This document shows positions 1 through 22,728 of a DNA stretch of 22,728 nt, in pieces. Position numbers and translations under genes: made by a program. The stretch covers positions 1 to 22,728 of IMG/VR virus record IMGVR_UViG_3300025057_000045. One strand, 5' to 3'. Within the stretch, counting starts at the first letter, position 1, and every line of letters begins with the position of its first letter. The DNA is from a virus. The notes under the pieces were generated by a model, which worked only from the letters and a program-made list of their open reading frames with translations, was not told the DNA's origin and did not search any database.

Positions 1-1311
1 CATATCATTAGCCCATTCTTCCTCACTTTCATTTTCTTCATCTACATCTCTAATATCTACCATTTCCCATTCATCACTATCAATTACTTCACCTTCTAAA
101 CCGTGTAGTATTTCTTCAAATATATCTTCAGGTAAATCTTTGCTTTGTGCTAATTGTAATTCAAAATCAAAATCACTATCTTCTTGTTTGATACCTGTTT
201 CTTCTTCAATAGCTTCTGCATCTTGTAAACTCTTATCTACTTCTATAAATTCTAATGGTTGTAGTGTTTTAAAGTATAGATTAAGTGTAATATCATTAAC
301 TGCTAGTATTTCATCTAGTGCATCTATAATTAAATCTTGATAAGGTTTAATAACAATATTATCAAATAATAGTGTAGCAGTTTCTATTTCTTCACTATTG
401 TTACCCAATCCATTGTTTCCATCTCTCAATCCAAGTAATAATGGTGATGTTACACGATGTGTTAAAAGTATCTTTCTTTGGCATTCTTCACTTAAATATT
501 CATAATGTTGTGGTGCATCTGGTAATGGTATATCTTCAATAGTTGTTTTCTGTTCTGCATTGTTGTTAAATGCTACTATAACCTTTTCACCATAAGAACC
601 TGTAAGTTTACCCATTACCTGTTCTTTAATTTCTAACTGTTTAGTTCTATCAGGTATTCCACCATTAAAGTTAATTACTTTTGTTCCTGAAAATGAACAT
701 TGTGCATCATTAATCAAAAAATCTGCAATTTCTTTTTCTAGTACTGCATATGATATTTGATAATCTGCTGGTGAGTAATAATAATAACCACTCACAAATC
801 TTTTTATAATATATATTTCATTTTTAGCACCACTACCAAAAACAGGAAATTTAGTTAGTTTACTATTTCTAGTTACTTTAGTCCAATCAGGTGCATAGTA
901 ATAATTCTTAATATCACCATTAGCATCCATCTTTTCAGCTCTTAAAGTTTCTCTAGGAAAGTGCGTTAATGAACCTACTTTATTTCCTTTATATGATACC
1001 TGAATAGCAGCTTCACCTAATAACTTTAAATCATTACAAACCTTTCTCATACAGCTAGGTGTAAGTAGCTGCTTCATCTGTGCATATTCTTCAGGTTTTT
1101 CATTACTATCTGTAGCATCTAAACCTTTACCATAAATCATATTTACAATACCATTAATAGTAGCTTGGTTTGTTGTGCTTTCCATATATGCATCTATCAA
1201 ACATTGATAGTAATCATTGTTATCACCTATTCCTACCCAATCTCTGTTTCTTTCCTCTGTGATAGCAGGCCTTTCATATTGATTTAATTGTATTAAATGT
1301 AAATTATCCAT
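1..1311 (-). CDS. Phage portal protein, 3' end cut off by the left edge
   Basis: The frame opens at ATG 1311-1309 (MDNLHLIQLNQYERPAI...) and stays open for 437 codons to base 1 with no stop, so the C-terminus lies outside the window. The portal forms the dodecameric ring at the capsid vertex through which DNA is packaged and the tail attaches. Seen: an N-terminal acidic/aromatic segment, a central region with YYYSPADYQISYAVLEKEI and a RVTSPLLLGLRDGNNGLGNNSEE stretch typical of the HTxxSPxxxG region of portals, and a very acidic C-terminal part (EENESEEEW). The start overlaps the stop of the upstream 117-aa gene by 8 bp. The family call rests on the SP-x-L-x-G region, size and head-gene context. 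The position far from the terminase is unusual. Confidence 0.78.
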   Translation of the reverse strand, partial: MDNLHLIQLNQYERPAITEERNRDWVGIGDNNDYYQCLIDAYMESTTNQATINGIVNMIYGKGLDATDSNEKPEEYAQMKQLLTPSCMRKVCNDLKLLGEAAIQVSYKGNKVGSLTHFPRETLRAEKMDANGDIKNYYYAPDWTKVTRNSKLTKFPVFGSGAKNEIYIIKRFVSGYYYYSPADYQISYAVLEKEIADFLINDAQCSFSGTKVINFNGGIPDRTKQLEIKEQVMGKLTGSYGEKVIVAFNNNAEQKTTIEDIPLPDAPQHYEYLSEECQRKILLTHRVTSPLLLGLRDGNNGLGNNSEEIETATLLFDNIVIKPYQDLIIDALDEILAVNDITLNLYFKTLQPLEFIEVDKSLQDAEAIEEETGIKQEDSDFDFELQLAQSKDLPEDIFEEILHGLEGEVIDSDEWEMVDIRDVDEENESEEEWANDM

Positions 1312-1657
1312 AGGTTACAAATTCATTATCTCCTGTACTTTGTTCTATATAAACACCATTACTAATTTCATAATCTGATAGTGTTTGATCTGTACAGTAC
1401 ATTTTATCTTTAAATATAACAATTCCATCTGTAGTGTTTGTTATGGTAATTGTATAATAGTTGTTTTCTTTTAGTGTTTGTGTAGTGCTATATTGATAAT
1501 AGTAATCCAATTCTGTAAATGTTGCTGCTGTATCTTCTAATATCACTTTATTTTGTCCTTCAGATTTAATCACTAACTTATAAACTTTTGTACCACTTAT
1601 TGTTTCACGTGGTATAAAGTTAATGTTTCTTGTGCCTGTTTCAGTTAGTATCTGCAT
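1304..1657 (-). CDS. Putative head-tail or minor structural protein, 117 aa
   Basis: A 117-residue protein rich in Thr, Tyr and Ile, with alternating hydrophobic/polar stretches (VYKLVIKSE, NYYTITITNTTDGIVIF) that predict a beta-rich fold. It has no signal peptide or membrane segment. It sits between a tail-tube-like gene and the portal, and its last codons overlap the portal start by 8 bp, so the two are probably co-translated. A terminator-like hairpin lies 9 bp upstream of its ATG. Context suggests a small virion or neck protein, but I do not recognise a named family; the function is inference from location only. Confidence 0.6.
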   Translation of the reverse strand: MQILTETGTRNINFIPRETISGTKVYKLVIKSEGQNKVILEDTAATFTELDYYYQYSTTQTLKENNYYTITITNTTDGIVIFKDKMYCTDQTLSDYEISNGVYIEQSTGDNEFVTYG

Positions 1658-1665
1658 AATTTTTT

Positions 1666-1698
1666 AAAAAAAGAAGGTGAGCTATTAAACCCACCCTC
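1666..1698 (-). terminator. Rho-independent terminator-like hairpin before the 117-aa/portal pair
   Basis: Read on the minus strand, GAGGGTGGG and CTCACCTTC can form a 9-bp stem with two G-U pairs around an 8-nt loop, followed directly by seven T residues. This is the classical intrinsic terminator layout. It lies in the only sizeable gap in this block, after the 182-aa structural gene and just before the 117-aa gene, so it would reduce read-through into the portal unless it is leaky or the portal has its own promoter. Confidence 0.6.
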
Positions 1699-1720
1699 TA
1701 CAATCAACTATATATTATGA

Positions 1721-1735
1721 ATCACACTCTGTGAT
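1721..1735. repeat. Perfect 6-bp inverted repeat ATCACA-N3-TGTGAT
   Basis: ATCACA, the spacer CTC, then TGTGAT. It lies about 12 bp beyond the stop of the 182-aa gene and 22 bp before the terminator-like hairpin. It could be an operator half-site pair, or a short RNA hairpin protecting the 3' end of the upstream message. Nothing in the sequence decides between these. Confidence 0.35.
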
Positions 1736-1747
1736 GAAGTGCCTATA

Positions 1748-2296
1748 TTAGCTATTAGTTCCTACTGTTACTGTTACAGTTGCACTACTCATTCCTGCAT
1801 AAGGGTCAGCAGCAGTACCACCAGAAATAAAGTTAGCAGGTTTAGCTTCTTGTGCTGTAAAGGTTAATGTGTAACCACTTAAATCACCAAATGCAGAACC
1901 ACTAGCAATAGTACCACCAGTTACTTCACATCCGTGAACCAAACCAAATTGCATAAAATTACCATTTCTATCTTCTACACAGATATGTGGCCTACCATAA
2001 GCCATTAACTTTAATTCAGCATTATCTTCTTTAGATAGTTTAGGAAATTGTAAACTAATACTTTGTTCAAAAAATGTAGTACCATTTTCTCTTGAACTTG
2101 TAATTGTTTGTTCAAAAGAATTAGCACCGTGTAAATCATATTGATATGCAGTAAAAGTACCTGATAAATCAGTTATTTCATCAGCAGTTTCTGTTACTGT
2201 TCCTAAATCACCAAAATCTACGAACCAAGCTCTAACTAAACCACCAACAACATCTTTACAAGGAACTTTTCTACCTCTTGTTAAATCGCAAGCCAT
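1748..2296 (-). CDS. Tail-tube-like or major structural protein, 182 aa
   Basis: A 182-residue protein starting MACDLTRGRKVPCKDVVGGL, an opening I associate with Bacteroidota phage structural (tail-tube-like) proteins. It is beta-rich, with many Thr/Gly/Ser residues, and ends in a Thr/Val-rich strand (ATVTVTVGTNS). Size and composition fit a tail tube subunit, which polymerises around the tape measure. It lies directly after the major capsid gene, separated by a 56-bp gap with a hairpin. Alternatives are a capsid decoration protein or other abundant virion protein. The tail-tube call is moderate because most other tail genes lie on the far side of the head block. Confidence 0.55.
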   Translation of the reverse strand: MACDLTRGRKVPCKDVVGGLVRAWFVDFGDLGTVTETADEITDLSGTFTAYQYDLHGANSFEQTITSSRENGTTFFEQSISLQFPKLSKEDNAELKLMAYGRPHICVEDRNGNFMQFGLVHGCEVTGGTIASGSAFGDLSGYTLTFTAQEAKPANFISGGTAADPYAGMSSATVTVTVGTNS

Positions 2297-2314
2297 AATC
2301 TTTAAATTTAAATT

Positions 2315-2336
2315 AAGGAGGCATTTCAGCCCCCTT
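2315..2336 (-). terminator. Hairpin after the major capsid gene (weak or leaky terminator)
   Basis: On the minus strand, AAGGGGGC and GCCTCCTT can pair over 8 bp (one G-U) around the 6-nt loop TGAAAT. The sequence after it is AT-rich but lacks a clean U-tract, so it is better read as a leaky terminator or a stabilising 3' hairpin for the capsid message. It is in the gap between the capsid and the 182-aa gene. Confidence 0.45.
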
Positions 2337-2352
2337 GTTATTAATTAGTTAA

Positions 2353-3288
2353 TTAGGCGTGGTATAATACTATATCAGAACCTATTCCATATTGTACACC
2401 TGATGTATATCTCATAATACATCTTACATTTTGTGAACCATCAAGATCACTCATATCAAGAAGTTTAACTTCGTTGTGATCAGAAAGTAAACCTGTACCA
2501 AAGTAAAGGTTAGATTTCTGTGCAGCCATTGCAGTATCATCATTCATACCTTGTGCAACAAATAATTTAACACCATCAAATGTTAATGCACCATTATTCC
2601 ACCATTGTGTTCCTTGATTGTTAACACCATTAGCACCTAATCCAGATGAACCAAATCCACCTAATGCTCTAACATATGCTCTAGCAATGTTTTGTGATAC
2701 GTAAATGTACATATCTTCTTTACCGTAAAGTGCAGAAGGAATAGCATCTACAATAGAACCTAATTTATCAATTACGTTTGCAGCAGTTACAGCAGCGTGT
2801 GAAGCAACATCAATTACATCAGCATCAGCTAGTGCAAGTGTTACTAAACCATCGTGCTCACCAGCATTAGCGTTTACACCTTCCCAGATATTTTGCTCTG
2901 TTTTTTCTGCTACCAAACCAGCAACGTGGCCAATGATAAAATCAGAAAATTTAGGTGGCATATTATCGTATGCTGAATATCCCATTTGTACAGCTTCCCA
3001 ATCATCTCTAAAATCTTGACGGCAAAACTCTAGGTTTACTTGAAATTCTTCAGGTTGTAATATTCTTTCAGTTAATGTAACAGTACCTGTAGCTGTAAAA
3101 TCACAAGTTGCATCCTTGATGATATTAGCATCAGTAGCAGCTTTCTTAATTACACTTTTATACTTTACATTTGGTTTTACTTCAATTCCACCATTCTCAA
3201 TAGTAGAACCAGAAAGTAATGCAGCAGCAATATACTTACCAGCAAATTCTCCTGCATATGTACTTGTTATACTTGTAGTAGTAGCCAT
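2353..3288 (-). CDS. Major capsid protein, 311 aa
   Basis: A 311-aa protein in the position and size range of HK97-fold capsid subunits. Seen: an Ala/Gly/Thr-rich N-terminus (MATTTSITSTYAGEFAGKYI), a segment with VTLTERILQPEEFQVNLEFC, a long amphipathic region and a C-terminal strand-rich end (RYTSGVQYGIGSDIVLYHA) resembling major capsid proteins of Bacteroidota phages. It follows the acidic scaffold-like gene by 10 bp, as scaffold-capsid pairs commonly do, with an XkdF-like protease further upstream. The ATG has an A-rich leader (AATAAAAA) and no Shine-Dalgarno sequence. The fold assignment is from pattern and context, not structure. Confidence 0.78.
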   Translation of the reverse strand: MATTTSITSTYAGEFAGKYIAAALLSGSTIENGGIEVKPNVKYKSVIKKAATDANIIKDATCDFTATGTVTLTERILQPEEFQVNLEFCRQDFRDDWEAVQMGYSAYDNMPPKFSDFIIGHVAGLVAEKTEQNIWEGVNANAGEHDGLVTLALADADVIDVASHAAVTAANVIDKLGSIVDAIPSALYGKEDMYIYVSQNIARAYVRALGGFGSSGLGANGVNNQGTQWWNNGALTFDGVKLFVAQGMNDDTAMAAQKSNLYFGTGLLSDHNEVKLLDMSDLDGSQNVRCIMRYTSGVQYGIGSDIVLYHA

Positions 3289-3298
3289 TTTTTATTGT

Positions 3299-3907
3299 TT
3301 AGTTATTATTAAATATTTTGTTATAAACTCTATCTTTTGTTGTTTCAGTTCTTTTACCAGCTATTGTAAAATGAACATTCTTTGTTTCTGCTTCAGGATT
3401 GTGTTTAATTGGTTCAGCAACCTCTGCAGATAATTCTTCTTTAGTTTCAACAACTTCTTCTTTGGACATTTCTTCTTCTTTGTCCTTGTAACCTAATTTT
3501 TCAATCATTGCTTTGATTTCTTCAAATGCTAGCGCAAATTCTTCTCTAGTTACATATTGCATTTCTTCTTCTTCTAATTCAGTTTCTACTTTTTCTTCAG
3601 TAGTTTCTTCAACTGTATCTTCAGAAAGTTCTTCTTCTGCTTCTTCAGCAGCAGCTTCTCCAATACTATCAATGATACCTTCTTCAATTACAAAAAGTGT
3701 TCTACCATCTTCTAGTTCATATTCACCTACTGGTAATGCCATTTCACCATCTTCTGATTTGATAAATACTGCATTTCCTTTGGTAAATTCTTCTGATACT
3801 AATAATGTACCATTCTTTAAACTAATTTCAGCTAGTTCTACTTTTTCTTCAGAAAGTTCTACACCAACAATATTTTTGATTTTGTTTAGTATGTCGTTTG
3901 CTTTCAT
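3299..3907 (-). CDS. Scaffold-like acidic protein upstream of the capsid gene, 202 aa
   Basis: The N-terminal third (residues about 18-75) is beta-rich, with ALPVGEYELEDGRTLFVIEE. The middle is extremely Glu-rich (about 80-115) and is followed by a predicted coiled coil (VTREEFALAFEEIKAMIEKL). The basic C-terminus ends KDRVYNKIFNNN. An acidic, helical protein directly before the major capsid fits a scaffold that fills the procapsid and is later removed by the protease. The start is 15 bp downstream of one of the two 30-bp promoter-like elements, so this gene probably opens its own transcription unit with the capsid gene. A minor capsid role is the alternative. Confidence 0.65.
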   Translation of the reverse strand: MKANDILNKIKNIVGVELSEEKVELAEISLKNGTLLVSEEFTKGNAVFIKSEDGEMALPVGEYELEDGRTLFVIEEGIIDSIGEAAAEEAEEELSEDTVEETTEEKVETELEEEEMQYVTREEFALAFEEIKAMIEKLGYKDKEEEMSKEEVVETKEELSAEVAEPIKHNPEAETKNVHFTIAGKRTETTKDRVYNKIFNNN

Positions 3908-3922
3908 AATAAGATTTATTAG

Positions 3923-3952
3923 TAATGTAGAAAAATGTGCAAAGTGTTATGT
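3923..3952 (-). promoter_or_regulatory. 30-bp promoter-like element, copy 1 (before scaffold/capsid genes)
   Basis: On the minus strand it reads ACATAACACTTT, G, CAC, A, TTTTT, then CTACATTA. It matches the element at 13173-13202 at 28 of 30 bases. It lies in the 61-bp gap between the 157-aa gene and the scaffold-like gene, ending 15 bp before that ATG. TACATT could be a -10-like hexamer, which would give a very short leader. It does not fit the usual Bacteroidota -33 TTTG / -7 TAnnTTTG spacing, so I infer a phage-specific factor. Confidence 0.6.
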
Positions 3953-3968
3953 GTTTTTGCAAAAAAAA

Positions 3969-4442
3969 TTATGCTTTAGCTTGTATTATAAACCACTCTG
4001 TACCATTACACCATATTTTTATACCTTCATAAGCTCTATTTATTCTATAAGCACTTGAACTTCCATCTAATGTTTGACCAGCTCTAGGTGTTAAATCAGC
4101 GTGAGTAGCAGTTGCAAATGTTGAATCTGAAATAATTCTTTTAGCTCTGTTTAAATTTTTACTATCAGTTGCATCAGGCAAAGTTAATTCTACTGTGCCA
4201 TTTGCTCCACTCCAACTTAATACAATAATTTCAGCTTCATCATAAGTTGAATCATTTAAATCTATTGTTCCACCTGATACACTTACTGTTAATGGTGTTG
4301 GATCTAAATGATTTACTATATAGTGCTGTAATTCATTTGCACTTACTTTTTTAGTTTCTGATGAATGTACTAATGCTATTGGTTCACTACCATCTAAACT
4401 TGATGCAGTTACTGCTGTTAATTGACTTATTTTTTTTCCCAT
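3969..4442 (-). CDS. Minor virion protein with a fiber-type N-terminus, 157 aa
   Basis: The N-terminus MGKKISQLTAVTASSLDGSE resembles the short leader of many phage fiber and appendage proteins (KISxLTxxTxxxxxD). The rest is Thr/Ser/Asp-rich and probably beta-structured, ending with a KIWCNGTEWFIIQAKA strand. No enzyme motif is visible. It lies within the head block between the Cys-rich 68-aa gene and the scaffold, so a head decoration or head-fiber role is the best guess. The family is not confidently recognised. Confidence 0.6.
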   Translation of the reverse strand: MGKKISQLTAVTASSLDGSEPIALVHSSETKKVSANELQHYIVNHLDPTPLTVSVSGGTIDLNDSTYDEAEIIVLSWSGANGTVELTLPDATDSKNLNRAKRIISDSTFATATHADLTPRAGQTLDGSSSAYRINRAYEGIKIWCNGTEWFIIQAKA

Positions 4443-4444
4443 TT

Positions 4445-4651
4445 TTATAAATTTATATTTTGTTCATTTTCTTGTAATAAATTACCGCCTGCTTCAGTAA
4501 GCAGTACACCTAAACCTGTAATTGAACCTATGCCTTGTGCTTGTAATGAACCATCACAACATTTTCTACTATATCTTCTACCATCTGCACATAAACAACC
4601 TCTTTTAGTTCCTTTAGGTGAAGTTCTACTTGGTGTTTTCCATTTTTTCAT
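4445..4651 (-). CDS. Small Cys-rich basic protein of the head region, 68 aa
   Basis: I place the start at the internal ATG at 4651 (MKKWKTPSRTSPKGTKRGC) because the longer frame from 4675 would overlap the protease gene. Four cysteines lie in a compact C-x-C ... C-C pattern (GCLCADGRRYSRKCCDG), followed by QGIGSITGLG. I recall similar short CxC/CC proteins in flavobacterial phages but know no function. Metal binding or disulphide use is possible. It is co-linear with the protease and the 157-aa gene. Confidence 0.6.
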   Translation of the reverse strand: MKKWKTPSRTSPKGTKRGCLCADGRRYSRKCCDGSLQAQGIGSITGLGVLLTEAGGNLLQENEQNINL

Positions 4652-4656
4652 ATTAT

Positions 4657-5856
4657 TTATTTTATAGGTACGCAATTAGGTACTCTTTTACCATTCTTCA
4701 TTTTAAAACCTATCATTTCATACCCTGCCTGACAAGGTTTTTTCATTTCGTGCTTTTCACAAGGCATATACCATTCTTTACCTTCATATTCGTGAACGTG
4801 AAAACCTTCACAGCCTATGTTCTTTGCCATTTCTTCTGCCTTTTCTTGTGTGCTGTATGCTAATCTATCATCTAGTATTGCAAAATCTTCATTAACTACC
4901 ATTGATGCTAAATTAATTTCACCTAGTTCTTTTAATTTACTTTCTGCCCATCTTAAACCAGCTTTACCACCCCATAGTAAATAGCTAATTGTACCACAAG
5001 CAGTACTATCACTTTCATCATAGTATTCTTGAGCTCTAGATAAATAGCTATACATTCTTTTAATGGTTTCTAAACTTATATTCTCTTTGTTTGCTAATTG
5101 TTGCGCTCTGATTTTTCCAACTTGTGTTGCGCATTTGTTATTAACCTTTTCATTAAGTTCAATGCCACGTTTAGCATTATTTGATACTCCTGAAGGATAA
5201 TCTTTGTATGTTTCAAGTGTAATCTTCTTGCCATTTTTAGTTCTTTTATCTTTTCTAATTAGTGCCTTAATATTACTTAACATATATTCAGCTTCTTCTT
5301 CTTCTATAGCTTGCATTTCTGCTTTTAGATTAGGTTTCTGTATTTTAGCTTTATCTGCAAAGTATCCTTCTATACTAAATCCTTTTACTTTACCTTCCTT
5401 TACATAATCATTCCAAACCTCATCATTTTCCACTTTCATACTAATCATCCAAGTGCCTTCTGGTACTTCAAAACCATACATTTTGCTTTTATCCATTTCA
5501 GGATTCTCTACTATCCAAGATTCTACAACAGTTAAACCATTGATTTCCATATTGTGTTCTAGTGTTGCATTATTTTGATTACCATTCATAAAAAACAATT
5601 CACTTGCTCTTTTTACTGTATCCTTACTGAAATACACATAGAACATTGTATCATTTCTTTTTCTAAATATTGGCTTATTAGGTATCAATGCAGCACCCAT
5701 TAGTATTTTCTTATCTTCATCCACTTTTGCAAACTTTACTTCTTGTTTGCTTAATGCTATAAAATCTGATTCTATAGCTGGATTCTCAACAATGCTAACC
5801 GCTTCTATACCTGTTAGTTCATCATTTTCATCTAGTAATAATTCTATTATATCCAT
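4657..5856 (-). CDS. XkdF-like phage prohead serine protease with an extra C-terminal region, 399 aa
   Basis: The N-terminal 170 residues look like the XkdF-type putative prohead protease: the opening motif IVENPAIESDFIAL (22-35), NATLEHN with His101, ESW with Ser113, the pair PEGTWMISMKV and VKGFSIEGYF (Ser161). Such enzymes cleave scaffold and capsid during maturation. A second part (about 205-315) is Lys/Asn-rich and contains TLETYKDYPSGVSNNAKRGI and STACGTISYLLWGG. The last 70 residues carry Cys/His-containing segments and end with NGKRVPNCVPIK. The gene lies upstream of scaffold and capsid, as expected. The catalytic residues are guesses from family pattern; the length is greater than the protease domain alone. 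Confidence 0.68.
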   Translation of the reverse strand: MDIIELLLDENDELTGIEAVSIVENPAIESDFIALSKQEVKFAKVDEDKKILMGAALIPNKPIFRKRNDTMFYVYFSKDTVKRASELFFMNGNQNNATLEHNMEINGLTVVESWIVENPEMDKSKMYGFEVPEGTWMISMKVENDEVWNDYVKEGKVKGFSIEGYFADKAKIQKPNLKAEMQAIEEEEAEYMLSNIKALIRKDKRTKNGKKITLETYKDYPSGVSNNAKRGIELNEKVNNKCATQVGKIRAQQLANKENISLETIKRMYSYLSRAQEYYDESDSTACGTISYLLWGGKAGLRWAESKLKELGEINLASMVVNEDFAILDDRLAYSTQEKAEEMAKNIGCEGFHVHEYEGKEWYMPCEKHEMKKPCQAGYEMIGFKMKNGKRVPNCVPIK

Positions 5857-5866
5857 TTTATTTATT

Positions 5867-7925: not shown

Positions 7926-10108
7926 ATTTTATTAATTAGTTCTAATTCTGTTTCACCACTTTGTAATTTTGTTTTCATACTGTTAATAGTATAAGACCTT
8001 GTGCCAATTATTATAGTATCATCTAAAGACAAATTAATTAAAACTTTTAGTGGTAAAATAGCTTTAAATTTAAAAATCCTTGATTCCTTTTTATATAATC
8101 TTGTAATATAATTTGTATAATACTTTTGAAATAAAGAATTATTTATTCCTCCAAAATCAGTATAATCATAGCTGTTTACTTCACTACCAAAATTTAAATT
8201 ATAGGTTGGAGGTGTTGTTGTACTTCCTACACTATTATAATTATGTGGCATCCAATAGTTAGAAATTGAATATCTTGTGCCTGCTGGACATAAAGCATTT
8301 TTAGTATCAGGTCTAGTAGTATCTACAAAATTCATCCCAAAATATCCTGTAGTTTTATAAACTCCATAAAATATAACAGGTTTACTAATTACTGGTTCTT
8401 CATTGCTATCTACGTGATATCCATATTGAGTATCTATTGGAGTATTATTTAAACCTATATTAGTAAGTCGTTCATAAAGTATGTGTTCTAAATCAGCTTT
8501 AACATTAAATTTATTATTAGTAGTTAAATCACTTTTAAATTCTAAACTGCCAAATTTTCTATTGTTTGTGTTATTAAATGCATCAGCTAAAATTGTTTTT
8601 TGTTCTGCATATTCAAAATCTATTTCATTATAAGGTATAACACTTAATACTGTATGCTCATTAGTTTTTACATATTCTGTAATATCGTGAGTATCTCCGT
8701 TATTATAAAAATCATCTAAAGTTTTAACTACTATCTCACCATTAAAATCAACAAATGCTGTTAAATTGTGCATCTTAAATAAAGTGTTTAGAAAATCTAA
8801 CACTTTCATATCTGGCATTTGATCTGTAATAACTACTTGTCCAGTTTGTGGTGTTAAGTTTGACGCAGTAGAAGTAAAAGTTGCAGTATAATTTGTGGTC
8901 GTTGGTGTAGGATTGGTGTCTATTGTAACAGTATAGTCTAAATCATATTGTGCTTGAAATTCAAATGCTTCTTCAGTTGTTACCCTTCCAACAATATCAC
9001 CAGTAAAAAATTCACCATCTTCAAAAGTGTAAGAAATTGTATTTGTTCCTGTTTGATTTGTTTTTTTAGCTAATGTTGTCCAATTTGATGCATCTAATAA
9101 TTCAATAGTATAAGGAACAGAAGCAAATCCAGTATTTGGAGTAACTTGAAAATCAATAGTAAATTCTATAAATAAAGTACTAGCATTTGGAGTATAATTG
9201 TATGTTATAATACCATTCCCTAGAGTAAATCTTGGACTATTATTTGGATCTGTAAGTTCAGTACAATTAGAACCTGAACAAGTATAAGAATCAGAATTTC
9301 CTATCCACGTTCCTGCTAAAGCTAATTTACCTTTTCTTCTATGTAGCCACATATAAAGATTATCCATAGCAGCAGAATCAAAAAATTCACTTGTTTTAAA
9401 TGTTAATGAATATTGTTCTTCTATTGCTTTTATAATATTTTTTACTAATATGGCTGGTTTTAAATCTTCTGGAACAACACCTCTCTGTGTTCTATTAGTT
9501 ACATTTACTGATATATTACCACCGTGATCAAGATTAGCTTGTGAATCTGCTATGTATTGCTGTGAATGTGTTATTAATGGATATATAATAGCATCATTAT
9601 ATGTAACAGAATCAACTGTAAAATTTAAACCACTTTCTAAACCTGATTTAACATTTGCAGTATTATTAATATGATCAAAGTTATTAAGCCATTCTAATTG
9701 ATTTAACTTATCTTCACCTATTAAATCATTTAATGTGATTGTATTACCAAAGAATGTAACCTTGTACATTGATGGTTGGTTATTTCTCATTGTAACACTT
9801 TCTAATCTAATCTTGCCATCTTTAAATGCAAAGTGATTTAATTCTATTCTAGCATTAGCTAGTAGTTGATTATCAAAACTCTCCACATCTGGATTATACC
9901 ACCACTTAAATATTTTATTATTGGTTTTGCTTGCAGGTAAATTAAATGTCTGTGAATAATCAGTAAAAACCTTATCAATGCTTTTAACATCTTGTATTAC
10001 TTGTGTTAAGGTTATTAATTCTTCCTCCATCAAATCAACTCTTATATAGTCTTGATCTGTGCTATCATTTCTTAACTTGGGTTGTATATATAGTATTACT
10101 TTTTGCAT
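7922..10108 (-). CDS. Large tail-tip or baseplate hub-like protein, 728 aa
   Basis: The N-terminus (MQKVILYIQP...YIRVDLMEEELITLTQVIQD) and the C-terminus (INLSLDDTIIIGTRSYTINSMKTKL, then SGETELELINKI) match the style of baseplate hub/tail-tip proteins, whose last domain carries a Y-x-I-N strand and an L-x-x-G-E-T-E-L-E-L ending. The middle (about 260-410) is Thr/Asn-rich and beta-structured. It is translationally adjacent to the 378-aa gene (shared base) and to the 51-aa ORF (ATGA). It probably sits at the distal tail end and contacts the host surface. No hydrolase motif is obvious. Confidence 0.6.
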   Translation of the reverse strand: MQKVILYIQPKLRNDSTDQDYIRVDLMEEELITLTQVIQDVKSIDKVFTDYSQTFNLPASKTNNKIFKWWYNPDVESFDNQLLANARIELNHFAFKDGKIRLESVTMRNNQPSMYKVTFFGNTITLNDLIGEDKLNQLEWLNNFDHINNTANVKSGLESGLNFTVDSVTYNDAIIYPLITHSQQYIADSQANLDHGGNISVNVTNRTQRGVVPEDLKPAILVKNIIKAIEEQYSLTFKTSEFFDSAAMDNLYMWLHRRKGKLALAGTWIGNSDSYTCSGSNCTELTDPNNSPRFTLGNGIITYNYTPNASTLFIEFTIDFQVTPNTGFASVPYTIELLDASNWTTLAKKTNQTGTNTISYTFEDGEFFTGDIVGRVTTEEAFEFQAQYDLDYTVTIDTNPTPTTTNYTATFTSTASNLTPQTGQVVITDQMPDMKVLDFLNTLFKMHNLTAFVDFNGEIVVKTLDDFYNNGDTHDITEYVKTNEHTVLSVIPYNEIDFEYAEQKTILADAFNNTNNRKFGSLEFKSDLTTNNKFNVKADLEHILYERLTNIGLNNTPIDTQYGYHVDSNEEPVISKPVIFYGVYKTTGYFGMNFVDTTRPDTKNALCPAGTRYSISNYWMPHNYNSVGSTTTPPTYNLNFGSEVNSYDYTDFGGINNSLFQKYYTNYITRLYKKESRIFKFKAILPLKVLINLSLDDTIIIGTRSYTINSMKTKLQSGETELELINKI

Positions 10109-13165: not shown

Positions 13166-13172
13166 ATATATA

Positions 13173-13202: not shown

Positions 13203-13215
13203 ACAAATTTTATAT

Positions 13216-13274
13216 TTCTTTTCTTTTCTTATCTCTTCTTATCTTAATGCTTTAGTAATGCTTAAGCAATGCTT
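13216..13274. repeat. Three 11-bp repeats plus C/T-rich tract, copy A
   Basis: Units TCTTAATGCTT (13242-13252), TAGTAATGCTT (13253-13263) and AAGCAATGCTT (13264-13274) stand head to tail next to a TTTC/TTAT-rich pyrimidine tract (13216-13241). The last unit overlaps the large terminase stop codon, and the rest is non-coding. Layout and first unit match copy B at 19444-19499. Possible iteron-type binding site, origin or packaging-related site. Confidence 0.55.
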
Positions 13275-14478
13275 AATAAATGTAGTATTCTCCACCACTT
13301 TGTAATTGATAACTAACTGCATACCTCAAAGCATCTAATGCGTGATTGTAATTGTCTACTGGTGTCTGGCTTTTACGTTCTAGCCATACATAGTTGTTTA
13401 GTTCTTTGATTAAATCAGTACTATCACTATCTATTACCAAATCATAATCTTGAATCATACTAATACCATATGTTACTGAACCTTGTCCTTTAATAGCTGG
13501 TACTATATTACAATGTCTTGATAACTCATTTATTAATCTAGGTTCTGCACTATCTGCTACTATCAAATCATTACCTGCATACTTTACATTTAATTGTGCC
13601 AGTTCACTTGTAGTTAGTTTAGCTTTATAATAACATAACTGCACATAAATGATCTTATTATTTTTATCTATTGAAATTTTGCAAAGCGTTGAAGGATCTT
13701 GAGCAAATCCAAAATCTTGGCCAAAAATTATTTTACCTACGTGTTTAAACTCACCTATACTCCAATTAGAATATATAACACCTTCAGCTTTATCTAGCCA
13801 AGCACCTTGTATAGTATGCTTAAATCTATCTGGCCTTCTTTGCTTCATACTTTCTATCTGCTGTATGTAGCTATCACTTAAGTTTTCTTTGTTATCTAAA
13901 TAGGTTGTGTGTATGTAAGTGGTATCACCTTTTGTTATGTTGCTGCCAGCTTCTACACCTCTAGCTTCATACCACCTTTGGTATATAAAATGTTCTTTAG
14001 TTGTTGGATTCAGTATTAATATTATTCTATTTTCTTGTGCTTTGTTTCTAACACTTAAATCAATCTTATCAAATGTATCTTCATCTACTAATTCTTCTGC
14101 TTCATCCATTACCCACGTTGTGATACCTTGCAATGATTTTAAGTTAGCTGTTTGATCACCTGATGAGGTTTTAATACCTCTAAATATTATCTTACTGCCA
14201 TTGCCTTTGTTTATGATTTCATCTTTGGTTATTTTAAAATCATCAACCTTATTAAGCATTTCAATCTTTTCAATAAATTCTGGTATAATAGATATACTAG
14301 CTGATCTTAATGTATATCTAGTAAACAGTATTGTGTGGCCTGCCTGATAAGTTAGAAGTAGCAGTATGGTATTTATTGCAAATGATTTACCTGAACCTCT
14401 ACCGCCTGTGATAATAAAATAACGTGCTTTAGATTCATCAAGTACTAGATACTTATTGTGTAGCTTTAATTCCTGCAA
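13273..14478 (-). CDS. terL: Terminase large subunit, 401 aa
   Basis: The packaging motor ATPase and nuclease that pumps DNA through the portal and cuts concatemers. Seen: Walker A GGRGSGKS at 25-32, Walker B with catalytic Glu in VMDEAEE at 123-129, the coupling-type motif ILNPTT at 155-160, and a RNase H-like nuclease with Asp255 (FGQDFGF), Asp309 (VADSAE) and Asp382 (NHALDALRY). The pattern resembles the PBSX/Terminase_3 group. The length is normal. It overlaps the small-subunit gene by 26 bp and is followed by the repeat and promoter gap. Confidence 0.95.
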   Translation of the reverse strand: MQELKLHNKYLVLDESKARYFIITGGRGSGKSFAINTILLLLTYQAGHTILFTRYTLRSASISIIPEFIEKIEMLNKVDDFKITKDEIINKGNGSKIIFRGIKTSSGDQTANLKSLQGITTWVMDEAEELVDEDTFDKIDLSVRNKAQENRIILILNPTTKEHFIYQRWYEARGVEAGSNITKGDTTYIHTTYLDNKENLSDSYIQQIESMKQRRPDRFKHTIQGAWLDKAEGVIYSNWSIGEFKHVGKIIFGQDFGFAQDPSTLCKISIDKNNKIIYVQLCYYKAKLTTSELAQLNVKYAGNDLIVADSAEPRLINELSRHCNIVPAIKGQGSVTYGISMIQDYDLVIDSDSTDLIKELNNYVWLERKSQTPVDNYNHALDALRYAVSYQLQSGGEYYIY

Positions 14479-15252: not shown

Positions 15253-15763
15253 ATAATTTTTTTTTAATGTTCTTCTTTGCTCTTTTAATAGTATTGTATA
15301 CTGTTACGTGGCCTAATCTAGTTTCTTTCGCTAACTTTCTAATGCTATTGAACTGCTTAACGTATAACGTAAAAAGTTTACGATCAAACCAATACATACC
15401 ATTTAGTATATCTAGTACCTTATTATTAAATTCTTCTAGTTCAAATTCATTTTCTTCTACTATGTTTTTTATTACTGCGTTTTCATCTTTAGGTATTCTG
15501 TTTTCTATGTTAGCAGTTTCTTGTATTATTCTTTCTATAGTTCTTTTTATTATGCCAAAATGTGGTTTATCATTTATAATTAATTGCTGTGTTTCTAGCT
15601 TACCATCGTGTACTTGTTCATATAACTTAATATACATTTCTTGTACAACATCTTGTACAACTTTCTTATCTTTCTTATATAGTAAATTATTTGCAATTTC
15701 ACAAAAATCATTGTGGTAAAGTGCTAGATGTTCTAGTATATTATTTAGTTCTAGCTTCTTCAA
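15242..15763 (-). CDS. Sigma-70-like factor or related HTH transcription regulator, 173 aa
   Basis: Residues about 14-50 (CEIANNLLYKKDKKVVQDVV then QEMYIKLYE) look like sigma region 2, where DxVQExxxKLxE is typical. Residues about 134-168 (VKQFNSIRKLAKETRLGHVT, then VYNTIKRAKKNIKKKL) look like a region-4 helix-turn-helix with a basic recognition helix. Length suits a small ECF-type factor. It is encoded in the middle region just before the terminase, as expected for a late-gene switch. It could direct host RNA polymerase to the two 30-bp elements, an inference. A plain HTH regulator without core binding is the alternative. Confidence 0.55.
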   Translation of the reverse strand: MKKLELNNILEHLALYHNDFCEIANNLLYKKDKKVVQDVVQEMYIKLYEQVHDGKLETQQLIINDKPHFGIIKRTIERIIQETANIENRIPKDENAVIKNIVEENEFELEEFNNKVLDILNGMYWFDRKLFTLYVKQFNSIRKLAKETRLGHVTVYNTIKRAKKNIKKKLYEK

Positions 15764-16094
15764 CTTCTATTAATAAGTTTACAAAATCATCTAATTCTAA
15801 TGCCACATAATCTCTTTCAAAGTTTTTAGTAAAGCACACTACTGGCATCTTTGCATTACCTAAACAATCGTTACGGCTTTGTTCTAGTGCTTTCCATATG
15901 TTTAATTTTTCTTGGTTCTTGCACTCCCAATTGAATTTACTTAATATACTATTATCATCAATGCACAGTATATCACCTTTCATAGATAAACCACCACTAT
16001 TAGGTGTTCTTCTAATATTAGCTTGTAGCTTTTCAGCTAGGTATTTTGCTACTTTTAATTCAAACCTTTTACCTTTTTTATTAGCATTCATCAA
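15741..16094 (-). CDS. PD-(D/E)XK nuclease, resolvase-like, 117 aa
   Basis: It starts MMNANKKGKRFELKVAKYLA with Glu12 in the first helix. Then come RRTPNSGG, LSMKGDI with Asp41, and WECKNQ with Glu57-x-Lys59, the E...D...ExK signature of Holliday-junction-resolvase/VRR-NUC-type folds. The R-x-P-x-S-G-G before Asp is typical of small phage resolvases that clear branched DNA before packaging. It overlaps its neighbours by 14 and 23 bp. The substrate is not provable from sequence. The second Met is an equally possible start. Confidence 0.68.
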   Translation of the reverse strand: MMNANKKGKRFELKVAKYLAEKLQANIRRTPNSGGLSMKGDILCIDDNSILSKFNWECKNQEKLNIWKALEQSRNDCLGNAKMPVVCFTKNFERDYVALELDDFVNLLIEVEEARTK

Positions 16095-16734
16095 ATATAG
16101 ATTTTTGTTTTACATTCTCTTTTCTTGTAATACCCAAAGCAGTTTCTAATATTGTTCTGCCAGCTTCATAATCTACTAAATTTCTTAAAACATCTCTATA
16201 ACCACCAACACCAGCACTTACTTTTATATCGTGAAATACCTCAAGCTTCTTATGTTCTTCTTTCATTGTGCATAAAATGCCATCAAGTTTTCTTTCTTTT
16301 AAATTATTTGGCAAATTAAAGTTAGTCCAATATAAGTGTCTACCTCTTTTTTTTGCTGGTATTAATGGTTCATAGTAAGGAATTACATTTTCTACACAAT
16401 ACTTACCATTAAAATAATTATCTAAAAAAATAATCTCCTCATAAAGTTTTAAATCAGGATAAATAGCTTTAAATGTATCTCTTGATTTTTGTGTAATTCT
16501 AATTTTACTATGGCTTGGGCAAGGAGGGCTACTCCAAATAAAATCAAACTCTTTGTAATGGTCTAATAAATACTGGTGTGCATCTGCTACTATTACTTTA
16601 TCATTAGGAAATCTCTCTTGGTATAGTTTAGCTAAATCTTTATCCCACTCTACAGCAGTAACATCTACATCTGTAACTTCATCCCATTTGTATCTATTGC
16701 CACCAAGACAAGCATATAAATTTAATATCTTCAT
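16081..16734 (-). CDS. DNA cytosine-C5 methyltransferase, small, 217 aa
   Basis: It transfers a methyl group from S-adenosylmethionine to C5 of cytosine in DNA. Seen: motif I LNLYACLGGN (4-13), a motif II acidic residue (VEWDKD), motif IV SSPPCPSHS with catalytic Cys72, motif VI VENV (114-117), and motif VIII GRHLYWTNF (131-139). The C-terminal GYRDVLRNLVDYEAG segment may be the reduced motif X. At 217 aa it is shorter than most Dcm-type enzymes, with little room for a target-recognition domain. It starts at an ATGA overlap with the 53-aa gene. It may protect the phage from restriction; the target is unknown. Confidence 0.85.
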   Translation of the reverse strand: MKILNLYACLGGNRYKWDEVTDVDVTAVEWDKDLAKLYQERFPNDKVIVADAHQYLLDHYKEFDFIWSSPPCPSHSKIRITQKSRDTFKAIYPDLKLYEEIIFLDNYFNGKYCVENVIPYYEPLIPAKKRGRHLYWTNFNLPNNLKERKLDGILCTMKEEHKKLEVFHDIKVSAGVGGYRDVLRNLVDYEAGRTILETALGITRKENVKQKSIFDEC

Positions 16735-17105: not shown

Positions 17106-17109
17106 ATTC

Positions 17110-17217: not shown

Positions 17218-17218
17218 A

Positions 17219-17715: not shown

Positions 17716-17725
17716 ATTTATTGTT

Positions 17726-18565: not shown

Positions 18566-19410
18566 TTTAATACATTTAAACCACCTATTGTAAAACCTAA
18601 TCCTTTATTATAATCAAAGCACAAAGGTTTATCTAGTGTAGGTGTACCACCAGTTTCTTTATCCTTAATTTTTTCTACTCTAACTTGTGTTAGCATCCAA
18701 CTTTCAGGTGAATTAATAAACCTGTGAATAGATAGAAATGAATCACATCTATTAGCAAACACTTGGCCACCTTCAACATCACTCTTTCTAGGTGGTTGTA
18801 TGTAACCAGCATATTCGTGGTTTGGTGGATATACTCTTCTTGCACTTTCTGTCATTGGATGTGTCATTACATAAATAGCTTTACCGGTGGTGTTACAAAA
18901 TTCTCTAATATCATTACATATTAAATAGTTTCTTTCATATTGGTTTACCTTTCTATCGTGGTTTAATCCTGTAAATGGATCAATAGCACAAGCATCACAG
19001 TTACTTTCTTTAAATAACTTTAGTAAATCTTTATGGTTGTACATTTTTTTATTACTTACAAATGTGAACCATTCAGCTATTTTATTATTGTATTCTTCTA
19101 TTTCTAGTTTGTTTAAATCTACTAATTTACTTTGTGAATACATTTGTATTAAATCTCTAGTTAATTGTCCTGCACTATTTTCACCACTCCATATTAACCA
19201 CTTTACATTGTGCTTAACACTTAAACATAAAAAATACCACAACATAAAATTAGTTTTACCTACATTATCCAAGCCAACTATAACTGTGAATGTACCTTTT
19301 TTATGTACAAACCAATTATCTAATTCATTACCAATACCTAAACCTCTTTGTATTTTACCTTCTTTAAAAGCAAATAAGTATTTTAACTGTTCTTCTTGCT
19401 TTACTATCAT
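18562..19410 (-). CDS. RecA/DnaB-type replicative ATPase/helicase, 282 aa
   Basis: Walker A GLDNVGKT at 46-53, a conserved Glu after WLIWSG (77), Walker B-like CDACAIDPF with Asp144, and MTHPMTE (182-188) as a sensor-type segment. A DnaB-like helicase unwinds the fork, and no primase domain is attached. The C-terminal part includes QVFANRCDSFLSIHR, common in phage RepA/DnaB-like ATPases. The preceding gene is initiator-like and couples by ATGA, a typical initiator-helicase pair. A DnaB-loader-type ATPase is the alternative. Confidence 0.75.
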   Translation of the reverse strand: MIVKQEEQLKYLFAFKEGKIQRGLGIGNELDNWFVHKKGTFTVIVGLDNVGKTNFMLWYFLCLSVKHNVKWLIWSGENSAGQLTRDLIQMYSQSKLVDLNKLEIEEYNNKIAEWFTFVSNKKMYNHKDLLKLFKESNCDACAIDPFTGLNHDRKVNQYERNYLICNDIREFCNTTGKAIYVMTHPMTESARRVYPPNHEYAGYIQPPRKSDVEGGQVFANRCDSFLSIHRFINSPESWMLTQVRVEKIKDKETGGTPTLDKPLCFDYNKGLGFTIGGLNVLK

Positions 19411-19814
19411 TTTATAAAGGTTGTAGTTAGGTATGGATCAGTATTATCTTTTCTTATCTTATCTTTTCTTAATGCTTGAGCATTGCTTGAGCTTTGCTTG
19501 TTTTGTGTGGTTTTACCACCTTTTCTACCAGCATTAACTCTTTTAATGTGTGCTGCTTTTCTTTCTTCAAATTGTTCATCTAGCCATTTAATTCTAATGT
19601 TATCACCATCTATCTTAAGTAACTGGCTATCAAGTAATTCACTCCATTGTTTAGGTACAAGTGATTTTATTTGTTCTCTGCTTACATTACATTCTTTACT
19701 CCAGTAGTAGCAGCAGATTTTCATAAACGCACCTTGCACATCTAAATCTTTAAACATTATTGATCCTGTTATCCATTGGTTAGGATAAAATTTAAAGTAT
19801 GGTAGTTCTTTCAT
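19407..19814 (-). CDS. Replication-initiator-like winged-helix protein, 135 aa
   Basis: The N-terminal 90 residues (YFKFYPNQWITGSIMF, VQGAFMKICCYYWSKEC) resemble the DUF1376/DnaD-like N-terminal domains of phage replisome organisers that recruit the helicase to the origin. A basic, Ser/Gln/Lys-rich tail (GRKGGKTTQNK onwards) follows. The tail is encoded by the 11-bp repeats of copy B. It is directly upstream of the helicase gene with ATGA overlap. It is short, as many Bacteroidota versions are. The initiator role is inferred from context and fold impression. Confidence 0.55.
   Translation of the reverse strand: MKELPYFKFYPNQWITGSIMFKDLDVQGAFMKICCYYWSKECNVSREQIKSLVPKQWSELLDSQLLKIDGDNIRIKWLDEQFEERKAAHIKRVNAGRKGGKTTQNKQSSSNAQALRKDKIRKDNTDPYLTTTFIK
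19444..19499. repeat. Three 11-bp repeats plus C/T-rich tract, copy B (inside initiator-like gene)
   Basis: Units TCTTAATGCTT (19467-19477), GAGCATTGCTT (19478-19488) and GAGCTTTGCTT (19489-19499) abut a TATCTTTTCTTATC-type tract (19444-19466). Unit 1 is identical to unit 1 of copy A. Coding in this frame yields a low-complexity Ser/Gln/Lys/Asp tail. Origin-type iterons inside an initiator gene are known from lambda O. Confidence 0.55.
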
Positions 19815-19832
19815 AATTATATAGTTATTTTT

Positions 19833-20192
19833 TTATAAACTTAAAAAATTAATTAATTCTTGTTCTTTTATTTCTTTGTAATTCAAAAAACATTTACCAT
19901 CATCAAAATTTGTGTTTTCAAATTGTATTAAATGAAAACCTAAATAATTCCAATCATTATCTATTCCATTATCTATCCATTTATTTATATTTTGCCACAT
20001 AATTTTTTGGCCTGTTCTTGGTTTACTATTTCTTGTTTTGATTTCTAACATCATTACTTTTTTTGTTTTCCAATTCCATAAAATAAAATCTAAATCACTT
20101 ACACTAAAACCTGTTTCTGAATCTGGTAATTTTTCTCTAATCCAACCACTAAATGTTAAATCTCTTATTCCTGTAACTTCTTTACGTGTCAT
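19833..20192 (-). CDS. PD-(D/E)XK nuclease next to a DNA methyltransferase, 119 aa
   Basis: Asp33/Asp35 in SVSDLDFILW and Glu50-x-Lys52 in MMLEIKTRN form the D...ExK core of restriction-endonuclease-like enzymes. Upstream residues (FSGWIREKLPDSETGF) and a C-terminal helix-strand part complete a minimal fold. Its ATG overlaps the methyltransferase stop (ATGA), so the two are co-translated. It could be a restriction partner, a resolvase, or a host-DNA-degrading nuclease. No HNH or GIY-YIG motifs are seen. Confidence 0.62.
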   Translation of the reverse strand: MTRKEVTGIRDLTFSGWIREKLPDSETGFSVSDLDFILWNWKTKKVMMLEIKTRNSKPRTGQKIMWQNINKWIDNGIDNDWNYLGFHLIQFENTNFDDGKCFLNYKEIKEQELINFLSL

Positions 20193-21244
20193 AATAAACT
20201 TTTTGCTATATTATATGTATCAACTTCAATTTCAGATGCTTTAATTCTTCTTCCTTTTTCAATAGCTGCTTTAATTGTTGTACCACTTCCAGCAAAAGGT
20301 TCTAATATTAAATCATTTGGTTTAGTAAACATTTCTATTAGGTAACCTACTCCACTCTTACTTTGTTGCCAATCGTGACCTTGTTTTTCTCTATGTTTAG
20401 AAATAAAATAATCTTGAAATGTGTTGCTTAATTTTTTCTTTTGATTTTGATAAATTAATACTGGTTTCCATCTACATATTAAATTAACACCATTAACTAT
20501 TTGTGTTTGTCCTTCGTGATATACAGCAAAAGTCCAATAATAATCTAAATGTTCATTCATTCTTTTCATTACTTCTGGTAAATGCATTTGTCCACTATAA
20601 GCTATACAAAAACCATTAGGTTTTAATACTCTTTTTGCAAACCTTGATAATTTTGTCCAGCATTCTAAAAACTCTTTTGGATATGGTGGATCAGTAATAA
20701 TACAATCAATACTACCATCTTCTATGTCTGCAAATACTTCTTCAAAATCTCCTAATCTAAAATCTATTTCTATTTCTTTTTTACTACCTTCTTCTGCTAA
20801 AATTCTTCTTTCTTCTTGTATTGCTTCTTTTTTAATAATCTTTCTAATTTCAGATTGAACTTTATTAGGTGTTATTACTTCTCCTTTTTGTTCTATTTCA
20901 TCCATTACTTGATTAGATAATTCTTCTTCTCTGTTTATTAAACGTGCATTAGAAGATTCATCTTTTGTAACAGGCATTTTATGAAGGTTGGTTTGTTCTA
21001 CCTTCATCTTTGTATATTTATTTTTACCTCCTTGTGGATAGTTTTGATCTAACCAAGCACCTTTTTTTCTTTCTATATCAATTCTAAACTTTCCAATTTC
21101 ATTTTGTTTATCTAATGCTTCTTTATTGCGTTTAGCAAATTCTGCTGCGGCTGCTGCTGCAGATTCGTGTGTTTTAACTTCTTCAAAAGTTTCTGCAAGT
21201 GCAAGTTCTTTTTTCCAAGTTTTTAATAATTCAATTTGTTTCAT
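20189..21244 (-). CDS. Beta-class DNA N6-adenine or N4-cytosine methyltransferase, 351 aa
   Basis: Motif IV DPPYPKEF begins at 185 and motif I EPFAGSGTT (315-323) is near the C-terminus, the order that defines beta-class enzymes. The DPPY form is commoner in adenine-N6 methylases, but the base cannot be fixed. Residues 1-150 form an extra, highly charged N-terminal region with an Ala run (29-34), KKGAWLDQNYPQGGKNK, and VITPNKVQSEIRKI, which may bind DNA or be a ParB-like/regulatory segment. It overlaps the HTH-like gene by 14 bp and the nuclease by 4 bp. Confidence 0.88.
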   Translation of the reverse strand: MKQIELLKTWKKELALAETFEEVKTHESAAAAAAEFAKRNKEALDKQNEIGKFRIDIERKKGAWLDQNYPQGGKNKYTKMKVEQTNLHKMPVTKDESSNARLINREEELSNQVMDEIEQKGEVITPNKVQSEIRKIIKKEAIQEERRILAEEGSKKEIEIDFRLGDFEEVFADIEDGSIDCIITDPPYPKEFLECWTKLSRFAKRVLKPNGFCIAYSGQMHLPEVMKRMNEHLDYYWTFAVYHEGQTQIVNGVNLICRWKPVLIYQNQKKKLSNTFQDYFISKHREKQGHDWQQSKSGVGYLIEMFTKPNDLILEPFAGSGTTIKAAIEKGRRIKASEIEVDTYNIAKSLL

Positions 21245-21554
21245 AATATGCTTTGTGTTTTTGATTGTAATTATTATATGCTTCTATTTCTGATTTGCTT
21301 AATCTATCCCAAGTATAAACACCATCAAAGGTAAATGTGCTAGCACTCATTGGCACACCTACCTTATCAGGTGCTTGTACATAATCAAAATACTTAAAGT
21401 TTTTTTTTACAGGTTTAAATTCAAATGCTAACCTTTCAGGCCTCATATCTAATTCTTTAGCTATTTCTGGTAGTGTGTAACCTTCCATTAATAATCCTTG
21501 TATGACTGACATACTGAAACCCTTTTTCAATAAGTAATTTGATTCTTCTATCAT
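21231..21554 (-). CDS. HTH-like small protein, 107 aa, unknown function
   Basis: Residues about 14-50 (SMSVIQGLLMEGYTLPEIAK, ELDMRPERL) look like a helix-turn-helix. The C-terminal half is aromatic (FKYFDYVQAPDKVGVPMSAS, YTWDRLSKSEIEAY). It sits between the SSB-like protein and the methyltransferase. It could regulate the early operon, but the region has no palindromic operator that I can see. The family is not recognised. Confidence 0.58.
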   Translation of the reverse strand: MIEESNYLLKKGFSMSVIQGLLMEGYTLPEIAKELDMRPERLAFEFKPVKKNFKYFDYVQAPDKVGVPMSASTFTFDGVYTWDRLSKSEIEAYNNYNQKHKAYYETN

Positions 21555-21556
21555 TG

Positions 21557-21808
21557 CTAAAATGGTAAATCATTAGTAGTTGAACTTGTAGCTTCTTGCT
21601 TTTCTTCTGGTTGCCAAGTATCTACACTAATAGCTACATCTTTACCATATTGATCAGCTTCATCCTTTACATTGATATTAAGTTTAATAAACTTGTTACC
21701 ATTGTATTCTTGGATGTGTTCTTTTAGTTTATCAGGATTGATGGTTACTTTTAACCACTTTTCATTCATTACTTTTCCTGAACCACAGTATATTGTTTTT
21801 TCTTTCAT
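21557..21808 (-). CDS. Small SSB-like protein with acidic DLPF tail, 83 aa
   Basis: It starts MKEKTIYCGSGKVMNEKWLK, is beta-strand rich (FIKLNINVKDEADQYGKDVA, ISVDTW), and ends in a flexible Gln/Glu/Ser/Thr/Asp tail closed by DLPF. A disordered acidic tail ending in D-x-P-F/DLPF is the protein-docking tip of bacterial and phage single-stranded-DNA-binding proteins. It lies right after the exonuclease. At 83 aa it is shorter than a full OB-fold SSB (about 110 or more), so it is a minimal or divergent type. Confidence 0.6.
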   Translation of the reverse strand: MKEKTIYCGSGKVMNEKWLKVTINPDKLKEHIQEYNGNKFIKLNINVKDEADQYGKDVAISVDTWQPEEKQEATSSTTNDLPF

Positions 21809-21830
21809 TGTTGTTTGTTTTTATTTGTTA

Positions 21831-22556
21831 TTAATTAAATATTGGTTCTTCTACTTCTATTTCTATTACATCATCACTATAGCCAACTGGTTCACCATTC
21901 CATTCATTGTATTTAGCTACTAGGTTCTTATACTCTGCAAAACCTTGCAAGATTAAATTATGGCCTAATCTATAGACCTGAACATTAAAAGGTGAAGTAG
22001 TTTCTATTGCAATTATATAATAATCTACATCATCATAGTTTTCTAAATACATAGCTGCTTGCATTTTGTAATCATTATATAATAAATCACGTTGAAACCT
22101 TTTACCAGCATCTGTAGTGGTTTTTATATCACATACAATGGTTTTACCATCTACATAGCTTTCAAGGTCTACAAAACCTTTAAAACCTACTCCTGCGTGA
22201 TTCCAAGTTACTTCCTTTTCAGTATGTACCTTGTTCTGCATTAGTTTATTAAATATAGGATTGTTCATTGCATTTTGCATTATTGCATTAGCATCATCTA
22301 ATTCTGATAGTTTAATGATCTGTTTGTTATCATTAGCAGCTTTAAATTCTTGCCATTCTTTACCTGCTCTTCTTGCACCTTCAAATACTGCATAATCATC
22401 ATTAAATGAATCTGGTTCTAATAACAGCTTGTGTACTATACTACCAAACTGCATTGCATCAGTTACTTTAGTTTTACCTTCCCAGTATTTTAATAAGTGG
22501 TTAGGTGATTTCTTAAATGCACATAATGCACTATAACTTAATCTATTCTTTTTCAT
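21831..22556 (-). CDS. PD-(D/E)XK exonuclease, RecE/YqaJ-type, 241 aa
   Basis: Seen: an N-terminal helical motif with GSIVHKLLLEP (38-48), GFKGFVD with Asp130, CDIKTT with Asp143-x-Lys145, and the QxxxY-like YKMQAAMYL (163-171) that marks the RecB/RecE exonuclease group. It would resect DNA ends for recombination with an annealing protein. No RecT/ERF-like gene is in the window, but the tail of an upstream gene at the right edge could be such. It starts 14 bp inside the 44-aa ORF. Confidence 0.8.
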   Translation of the reverse strand: MKKNRLSYSALCAFKKSPNHLLKYWEGKTKVTDAMQFGSIVHKLLLEPDSFNDDYAVFEGARRAGKEWQEFKAANDNKQIIKLSELDDANAIMQNAMNNPIFNKLMQNKVHTEKEVTWNHAGVGFKGFVDLESYVDGKTIVCDIKTTTDAGKRFQRDLLYNDYKMQAAMYLENYDDVDYYIIAIETTSPFNVQVYRLGHNLILQGFAEYKNLVAKYNEWNGEPVGYSDDVIEIEVEEPIFN

Positions 22557-22677
22557 AATCTTCTAGTTTTTGTTGGTAAAATTTAGTAATGGCTGCATTC
22601 CATTGTTCTTCTATCTGCTGTTTTTCTCTTACTAGTTCTAACAGCTTTTCATATTCTGTTTTTATATCCTGTATCAT
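22543..22677 (-). CDS. Small coiled-coil protein, 44 aa
   Basis: It starts MIQDIKTEYEKLLELVREKQ, then QIEEQWNAAITKFYQQKLED. It is one long charged helix, likely a coiled coil. The start shares ATGA with the stop of the right-edge gene, and its end overlaps the exonuclease start by 14 bp, so it fills a packed slot in the operon. Function unknown. Confidence 0.52.
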   Translation of the reverse strand: MIQDIKTEYEKLLELVREKQQIEEQWNAAITKFYQQKLEDYEKE

Positions 22678-22728
22678 TTTGAATCTTTTTTAAATGAATC
22701 AGCTTCTACATCACTGTATATACCGTAT
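22674..22728 (-). CDS. 3' end of an unidentified gene cut by the right edge
   Basis: The last 17 codons (YGIYSDVEADSFKKDSK) of a frame that enters from beyond base 22728 and stops with TGA overlapping the next ATG. This is an acidic then basic tail only. By position next to an exonuclease it could be a recombination protein, but nothing in the fragment proves that. Confidence 0.45.
   Translation of the reverse strand, partial: YGIYSDVEADSFKKDSK

Follow-up and report, generated by a model that had tools for sequence, protein, structure and literature searches.

Why is the tetranucleotide CATG missing from this DNA, and what kind of cause could have removed it? The window, which is an entire IMG/VR virus record (22,728 bases; labelled G000 in the comparisons), belongs to an uncultured marine virus of bacteria, a tailed phage of a marine family. 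It is probably a fragment because relatives of 28–35 kb exist and, hence, phage genes lying beyond it are out of view. The genome is AT-rich and strand-skewed, and the minus-strand genes include those for the terminase and the tape measure protein, together with maturation protease-like, exonuclease VIII-like, helicase-like, resolvase-like, and sigma-factor-like proteins. The nearest isolates are the Nonlabens phages P12024S and P12024L, with an identity of 55% for the terminase and 30% for the capsid-type protein. The features considered are listed in Table 1.

Table 1. Genes, open reading frames (ORFs), and residual words of the window, in order of position.
Feature	Position	Strand	Basis or remark
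Probable major capsid/virion protein	2353..3288	-	phrog_11320, weak phrog_1623; second marker for finding relatives
Residual AGNCT word AGGCT	4812..4816	-	one of three
Residual AGNCT word AGACT	8935..8939	-	one of three
Residual AGNCT word AGACT	10048..10052	-	one of three
Terminase large subunit	13273..14478	-	Pfam PF04466/PF17288; marker to find and order relatives
PD-(D/E)xK protein	15741-16094		recombination-family match
Short C5-methyltransferase-like protein, accessory	16081..16734	-	only N-terminal part of PF00145
119-aa ORF, D...ExK-like pattern (by eye)	19833..20192	-	overlaps end of methyltransferase gene
Predicted phage N6/N4 DNA methyltransferase, accessory	20189..21244	-	PF01555 3e-13
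PD-(D/E)xK protein	21831-22556		recombination-family match
Lone remaining CASTG	22712..22716	-	13-17 bases from record end

A sequence-only reading of the window had noticed the absence of CATG, and our recount on both strands confirmed it, with 0 sites in 22,728 bp. Base composition predicted 57.8 sites, and a second-order Markov model, which represents trinucleotide composition, predicted 64.5; the Poisson probability of zero sites under the latter expectation was ~1e-28. When codons were shuffled with the protein sequences and codon numbers fixed, 34.2 ± 4.2 sites were expected in the coding sequence, and zero was reached in 0 of 1,000 shuffles. The deficit thus survived both the Markov (0/64.5) and the codon-shuffle (0/34.2) controls, indicating that composition or codon bias is insufficient to account for it, and such a near-zero ratio beyond composition and codon use is a criterion of Type II site elimination. 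The same reading had described a switching of His codons around the missing word. At all five His places quoted, the plus strand reads CGTG, corresponding to CACG on the coding strand, and CAC was used at 28 of the 28 His codons followed by G. Its statement that His is usually CAT held mildly, and only before A, T, or C (CAT 37, CAC 29), but not overall (CAC 57, CAT 37). Furthermore, none of the codons preceding a Met codon in the window ends in C. The four palindromes that it had listed as present were indeed found, GTAC (73/80, observed/expected), TGCA (141/152), and AGCT (112/105) at normal frequency, as was CTAG (88/87), and GATC at a mildly low one (32/51). GANTC was also normal, and CAWTG was in excess.

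CATG is, however, one among several eliminated words in the window. Over the whole window, the observed/expected values were 0/61.9 for CTNAG, 1/36.5 for CASTG, and 3/32.6 for AGNCT, and those in the codon-shuffle control were 0/34.6, 0/11.2, and 3/34, respectively, with AGSCT at 1/17.9 in the latter control. CCNGG (0/13) and GGNNCC (0/11) are weaker cases and were not counted as sure because they were also low in many related contigs and CCWGG was at 0/2.6 after codon shuffling; their lowness may be compositional. The deficits in these five words had gone unmentioned in the sequence-only reading. CATG is the NlaIII/FatI-type site, CTNAG the DdeI-type, and CASTG the TspRI-type, and these known systems recognise exactly three of the words missing from the window, for which enzymes of these types in the phage's own host would be candidates. 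To our knowledge, AGNCT corresponds to no known enzyme specificity, and no mention of it was found in a limited search of the literature, which is weak evidence.

The relatives of the window carry different absences. About 160 related loci were obtained from IMG/VR, and 46 contigs, the window included, were studied at length. The set of G001 and G026 (average protein identity of 96% over shared genes) was as in the window, and G002 and G004 lacked CATG and kept some CTNAG. CATG was kept in G003 (terminase, 93%), which was without GATC, CTAG, and CASTG, and also in G005 (terminase, 95%), in which CTAG was at 4/83, and G032 and G045 were each without about nine words or more. The word sets therefore differed between phages with terminases 92–95% identical, and the lineage-specific eliminated sets included CATG, CTAG, GATC, CTNAG, CASTG, AGNCT, and others. 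A terminase tree of 92 rows required a minimum of 10 changes for CATG, 10 for AGNCT, 9 for GATC, 8 for CTAG, and 5 each for CTNAG and CASTG, these counts being rough owing to the weakness of many inner branches. The sites left in some partly depleted contigs were clustered; in G034 (L192-L193), which spans 24 kb, all ten CATG lay within roughly the initial 8 kb in the coding orientation (P < 0.001). Such clusters suggest imported modules, in the case of G034 as from a CATG-tolerant phage.

Asymmetric words were also noted in a few relatives. CCAG/CTGG was nearly absent from G038 (1/101), G041 (5/94), and G045 (0/73), which correspond to L196-L197, L202-L203, and L207-L208, respectively, and several words neighbouring CCAG were in excess in them, a pattern that suggests an asymmetric specificity. 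G021 (L180-L181) had few eliminated words and was found with the asymmetric AAGAC at 0/19; the motif AAGACC has been reported for a Polaribacter type III homologue (PMC12570018).

Site-by-site alignment indicated how the difference in CATG is made up. Most genes of G025 closely resemble those of the window, yet none of its 17 aligned CATG sites was shared with the window. All 17 differed by exactly one base there (9 CACG and 8 TATG), with the protein unchanged at 15 of them, whereas the control words were shared in 34 of 52 cases for GTAC and 55 of 97 for TGCA (57–65%) and in 40 of 74 for AGCT (54%). The occurrence of CACG and TATG in similar numbers argues against a single mutational bias. 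As judged from these alignments, the minimal, mostly synonymous changes at homologous sites are of the kind that selection at the sites would produce, the direction being undecidable because either the window lost the sites or G025 regained them. In the comparison of G003 with the window, the aligned sites were 20 versus 0 for CATG, 0 versus 15 for GATC, and 1 versus 48 for CTAG.

The eliminated words in the family were also examined for their form. Among 86 related loci of at least 8 kb, 161 of 2,051 tests of palindromic words indicated elimination, compared with 3 of 9,218 for non-palindromic words. In a preceding test, which covered the 46 long contigs, the values were 83/523 for palindromic 4-mers and 6/4,976 for the others. 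In pelagiphage loci (L232-L311), which are marine and AT-rich and are matched in environment and composition, only 4 of 846 palindromic tests indicated elimination, all of CTNAG, and 12 of 3,880 non-palindromic 4-mer tests were also low. The edges of the words were defined to one base in pooled contigs, with CTNAG at 0/324 and CASTG at 2/167 while CAWTG was at 325/276. AGNCT was at 0/174, with all four middle bases absent, over the five contigs G007 (L211), G011 (L172-L173), G014 (L215), G015 (L216), and G042 (L153). Thus, palindromic or interrupted-palindrome words are missing while their neighbours are unaffected, which is another criterion of Type II site elimination.

Taken together, these results are very probably best explained by the escape of the phages from several Type II restriction enzymes of their hosts through site elimination. 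The sequence-only reading had proposed long pressure from a host restriction system. A cause of this kind finds strong support in the palindromic words, the one-base edges, the mostly synonymous differences, and the lineage-specific sets, but not in the form of a single CATG enzyme, at least three or four specificities being in play. The eliminated sites would be those of orthodox Type II enzymes in present or recent hosts, with CATG, CTNAG, CASTG, and probably AGNCT as candidate specificities. An incoming unmethylated genome with even one site would risk being cut and, therefore, site-free variants would survive. Single substitutions, for the most part synonymous, may have removed the sites until none remained, new sites being purged for as long as the pressure persisted. 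After a change of host or enzyme, the selection on a word would relax and its sites could return while other words are purged, and repeated turnover of this kind could give each lineage a barcode of its own.

The sequence-only reading had also considered a phage nuclease that spares the phage's own DNA, that is, one or more phage-encoded nucleases that degrade the DNA of the host or of rival phages at these words, so that the phage itself must lack them. Two PD-(D/E)xK proteins and the 119-aa D...ExK-like ORF beside the methyltransferase gene are candidates in the window. The two proteins, however, match recombination families, the family of the one at 15741-16094 was found in contigs of both states, and the 119-aa ORF, which was seen only in the window, was in no other contig studied; searches of PHROGs, Pfam, and PDB sequences, as well as of the related contigs, gave no relatives. 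None of 289 gene families tracked the absence of CATG, CTNAG, GATC, or CTAG, the best for CATG being present in 8 of 11 null and 1 of 5 rich contigs, and several words would require several nucleases. This proposal, therefore, was unsupported, and we consider it very unlikely. The methyltransferase genes, which are accessory, occur in too small a number to be linked with particular words. Enzymes related to the predicted N6/N4 methyltransferase were present in 8 of the 45 other contigs, and the C5-methyltransferase-like protein (~217 aa), which matches only the first 87 positions of PF00145, was in 4 of the 45. The size of the latter was conserved across five contigs, and it is possibly a different base-modifying enzyme.

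A reading system of the host other than orthodox Type II, such as a Type IV, Type I/III, or BREX-like system or the recognition of a CRISPR PAM, would be consistent with the few asymmetric words eliminated in relatives (CCAG, 6/268 pooled over three contigs). The words of the window, in contrast, each have the form typical of Type II sites, being either palindromes or interrupted palindromes, and elimination is reported almost only at orthodox Type II sites (PMC6286503); this explanation also appears to have little probability. A compositional origin, through high AT content, biased dinucleotides, or codon preference, or a mutational one, for instance through the deamination of methylated C, might be expected in an AT-rich, strand-skewed genome whose depleted GC-rich words, CCNGG and GGNNCC, are scarce in many other contigs as well. 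It is contradicted by the Markov and codon-shuffle controls and by relatives of the same composition that keep CATG but lack other words; non-palindromic words were hardly affected, and the similar numbers of CATG/CACG and CATG/TATG differences are unlike one deamination process. We regard this origin as extremely improbable, and likewise a technical artefact introduced with the library or the assembly, such as digestion by a CATG cutter, even though all the sequences are metagenomic contigs. Opposite patterns were found in one dataset (3300029309), in which CATG was at 0/37 in L008 and at 24/27 in L071, with CTNAG at 0/21 in the latter; homologous genes were present with single substitutions rather than missing, and pelagiphage contigs of similar datasets were without the pattern.

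For the host enzymes as agents of site elimination, candidates were sought in genomes of the order Flavobacteriales. NlaIII-family (PF05315) genes were rare, being found in 2 of 396 genomes, with neither linked to the phage, and they adjoined DNA methyltransferases in both. Of the PF05315 genes in L227 and L228, one adjoins a C5 methyltransferase and the other a methyltransferase with a DPPY motif. For the DpnII family, a single match above the cut-off was obtained in 196 genomes. A member of the order carrying HindIII- and MjaI-family genes (G059) was low in AAGCTT in its own genome (48/236); it was rejected as the host owing to its GC content of 50%, compared with ~30% in the phages, and to its having hardly any CATG deficit (0.83). 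The terminase gave only distant relatives (45–59% identity) in genome contigs in the host search, and the capsid-type protein had no match in the 396 Flavobacteriales genomes. The presence of NlaIII-, HindIII-, and MjaI-family genes in the order, thus, lends plausibility only to the candidate host enzymes, and the tie to FatI or Flavobacterium raised in the sequence-only reading is likewise a candidate only.

Elimination of sites by phages has been described almost only for orthodox Type II systems and is much stronger in non-temperate phages (Rusinov 2018, PMC6286503). In about one genome in ten, the elimination is total or almost total, and 7.1% of host Type II sites are eliminated in phages with known hosts (PMC6286503). 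Like the lytic dsDNA phages of that study, the present phages have completely lost (O/E < 0.1) palindromic Type II words, beyond the effect of composition, whereas, unlike in those with known hosts, about nine words are gone per genome at most and the sets turn over within the family. A limited search of the literature on CATG or on word avoidance in marine phages gave no closer precedent than that study. The Nonlabens phage P12024L (Inhavirus), with a host among marine Flavobacteriia, is also without Type II-like words, but its set consists of GGCC (0/32) and CCGG (2/35), not CATG. It carries genes for a 2OG-Fe oxygenase, an HMC-glucosyltransferase-like protein, and a methyltransferase (L226 16409-18674), a trio that suggests, from these gene assignments, modified DNA as another route against restriction. 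The strategy is, hence, already known, and the window is a new, heavy, and fast-changing instance of it; possibly new are the rapid turnover of the sets inside a family and words such as AGNCT and the asymmetric CCAG.

The family represents a natural experiment, in which dozens of close genomes have different, often complete, and precisely bounded absences, and it allows the speed at which restriction pressure is gained and lost to be measured. Such phages would also escape methods that rely on digestion at CATG or GATC. We tentatively propose, with somewhat less than even confidence, that the words lost from this family form a rapidly changing fossil record of the restriction exerted by uncultured marine Bacteroidota hosts, including specificities for which a limited search of the literature gave no description (notably AGNCT and CCAG). 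If so, the absences would predict the enzyme repertoires of uncultured marine bacterial hosts, and from the barcodes hosts could be named and enzymes discovered.
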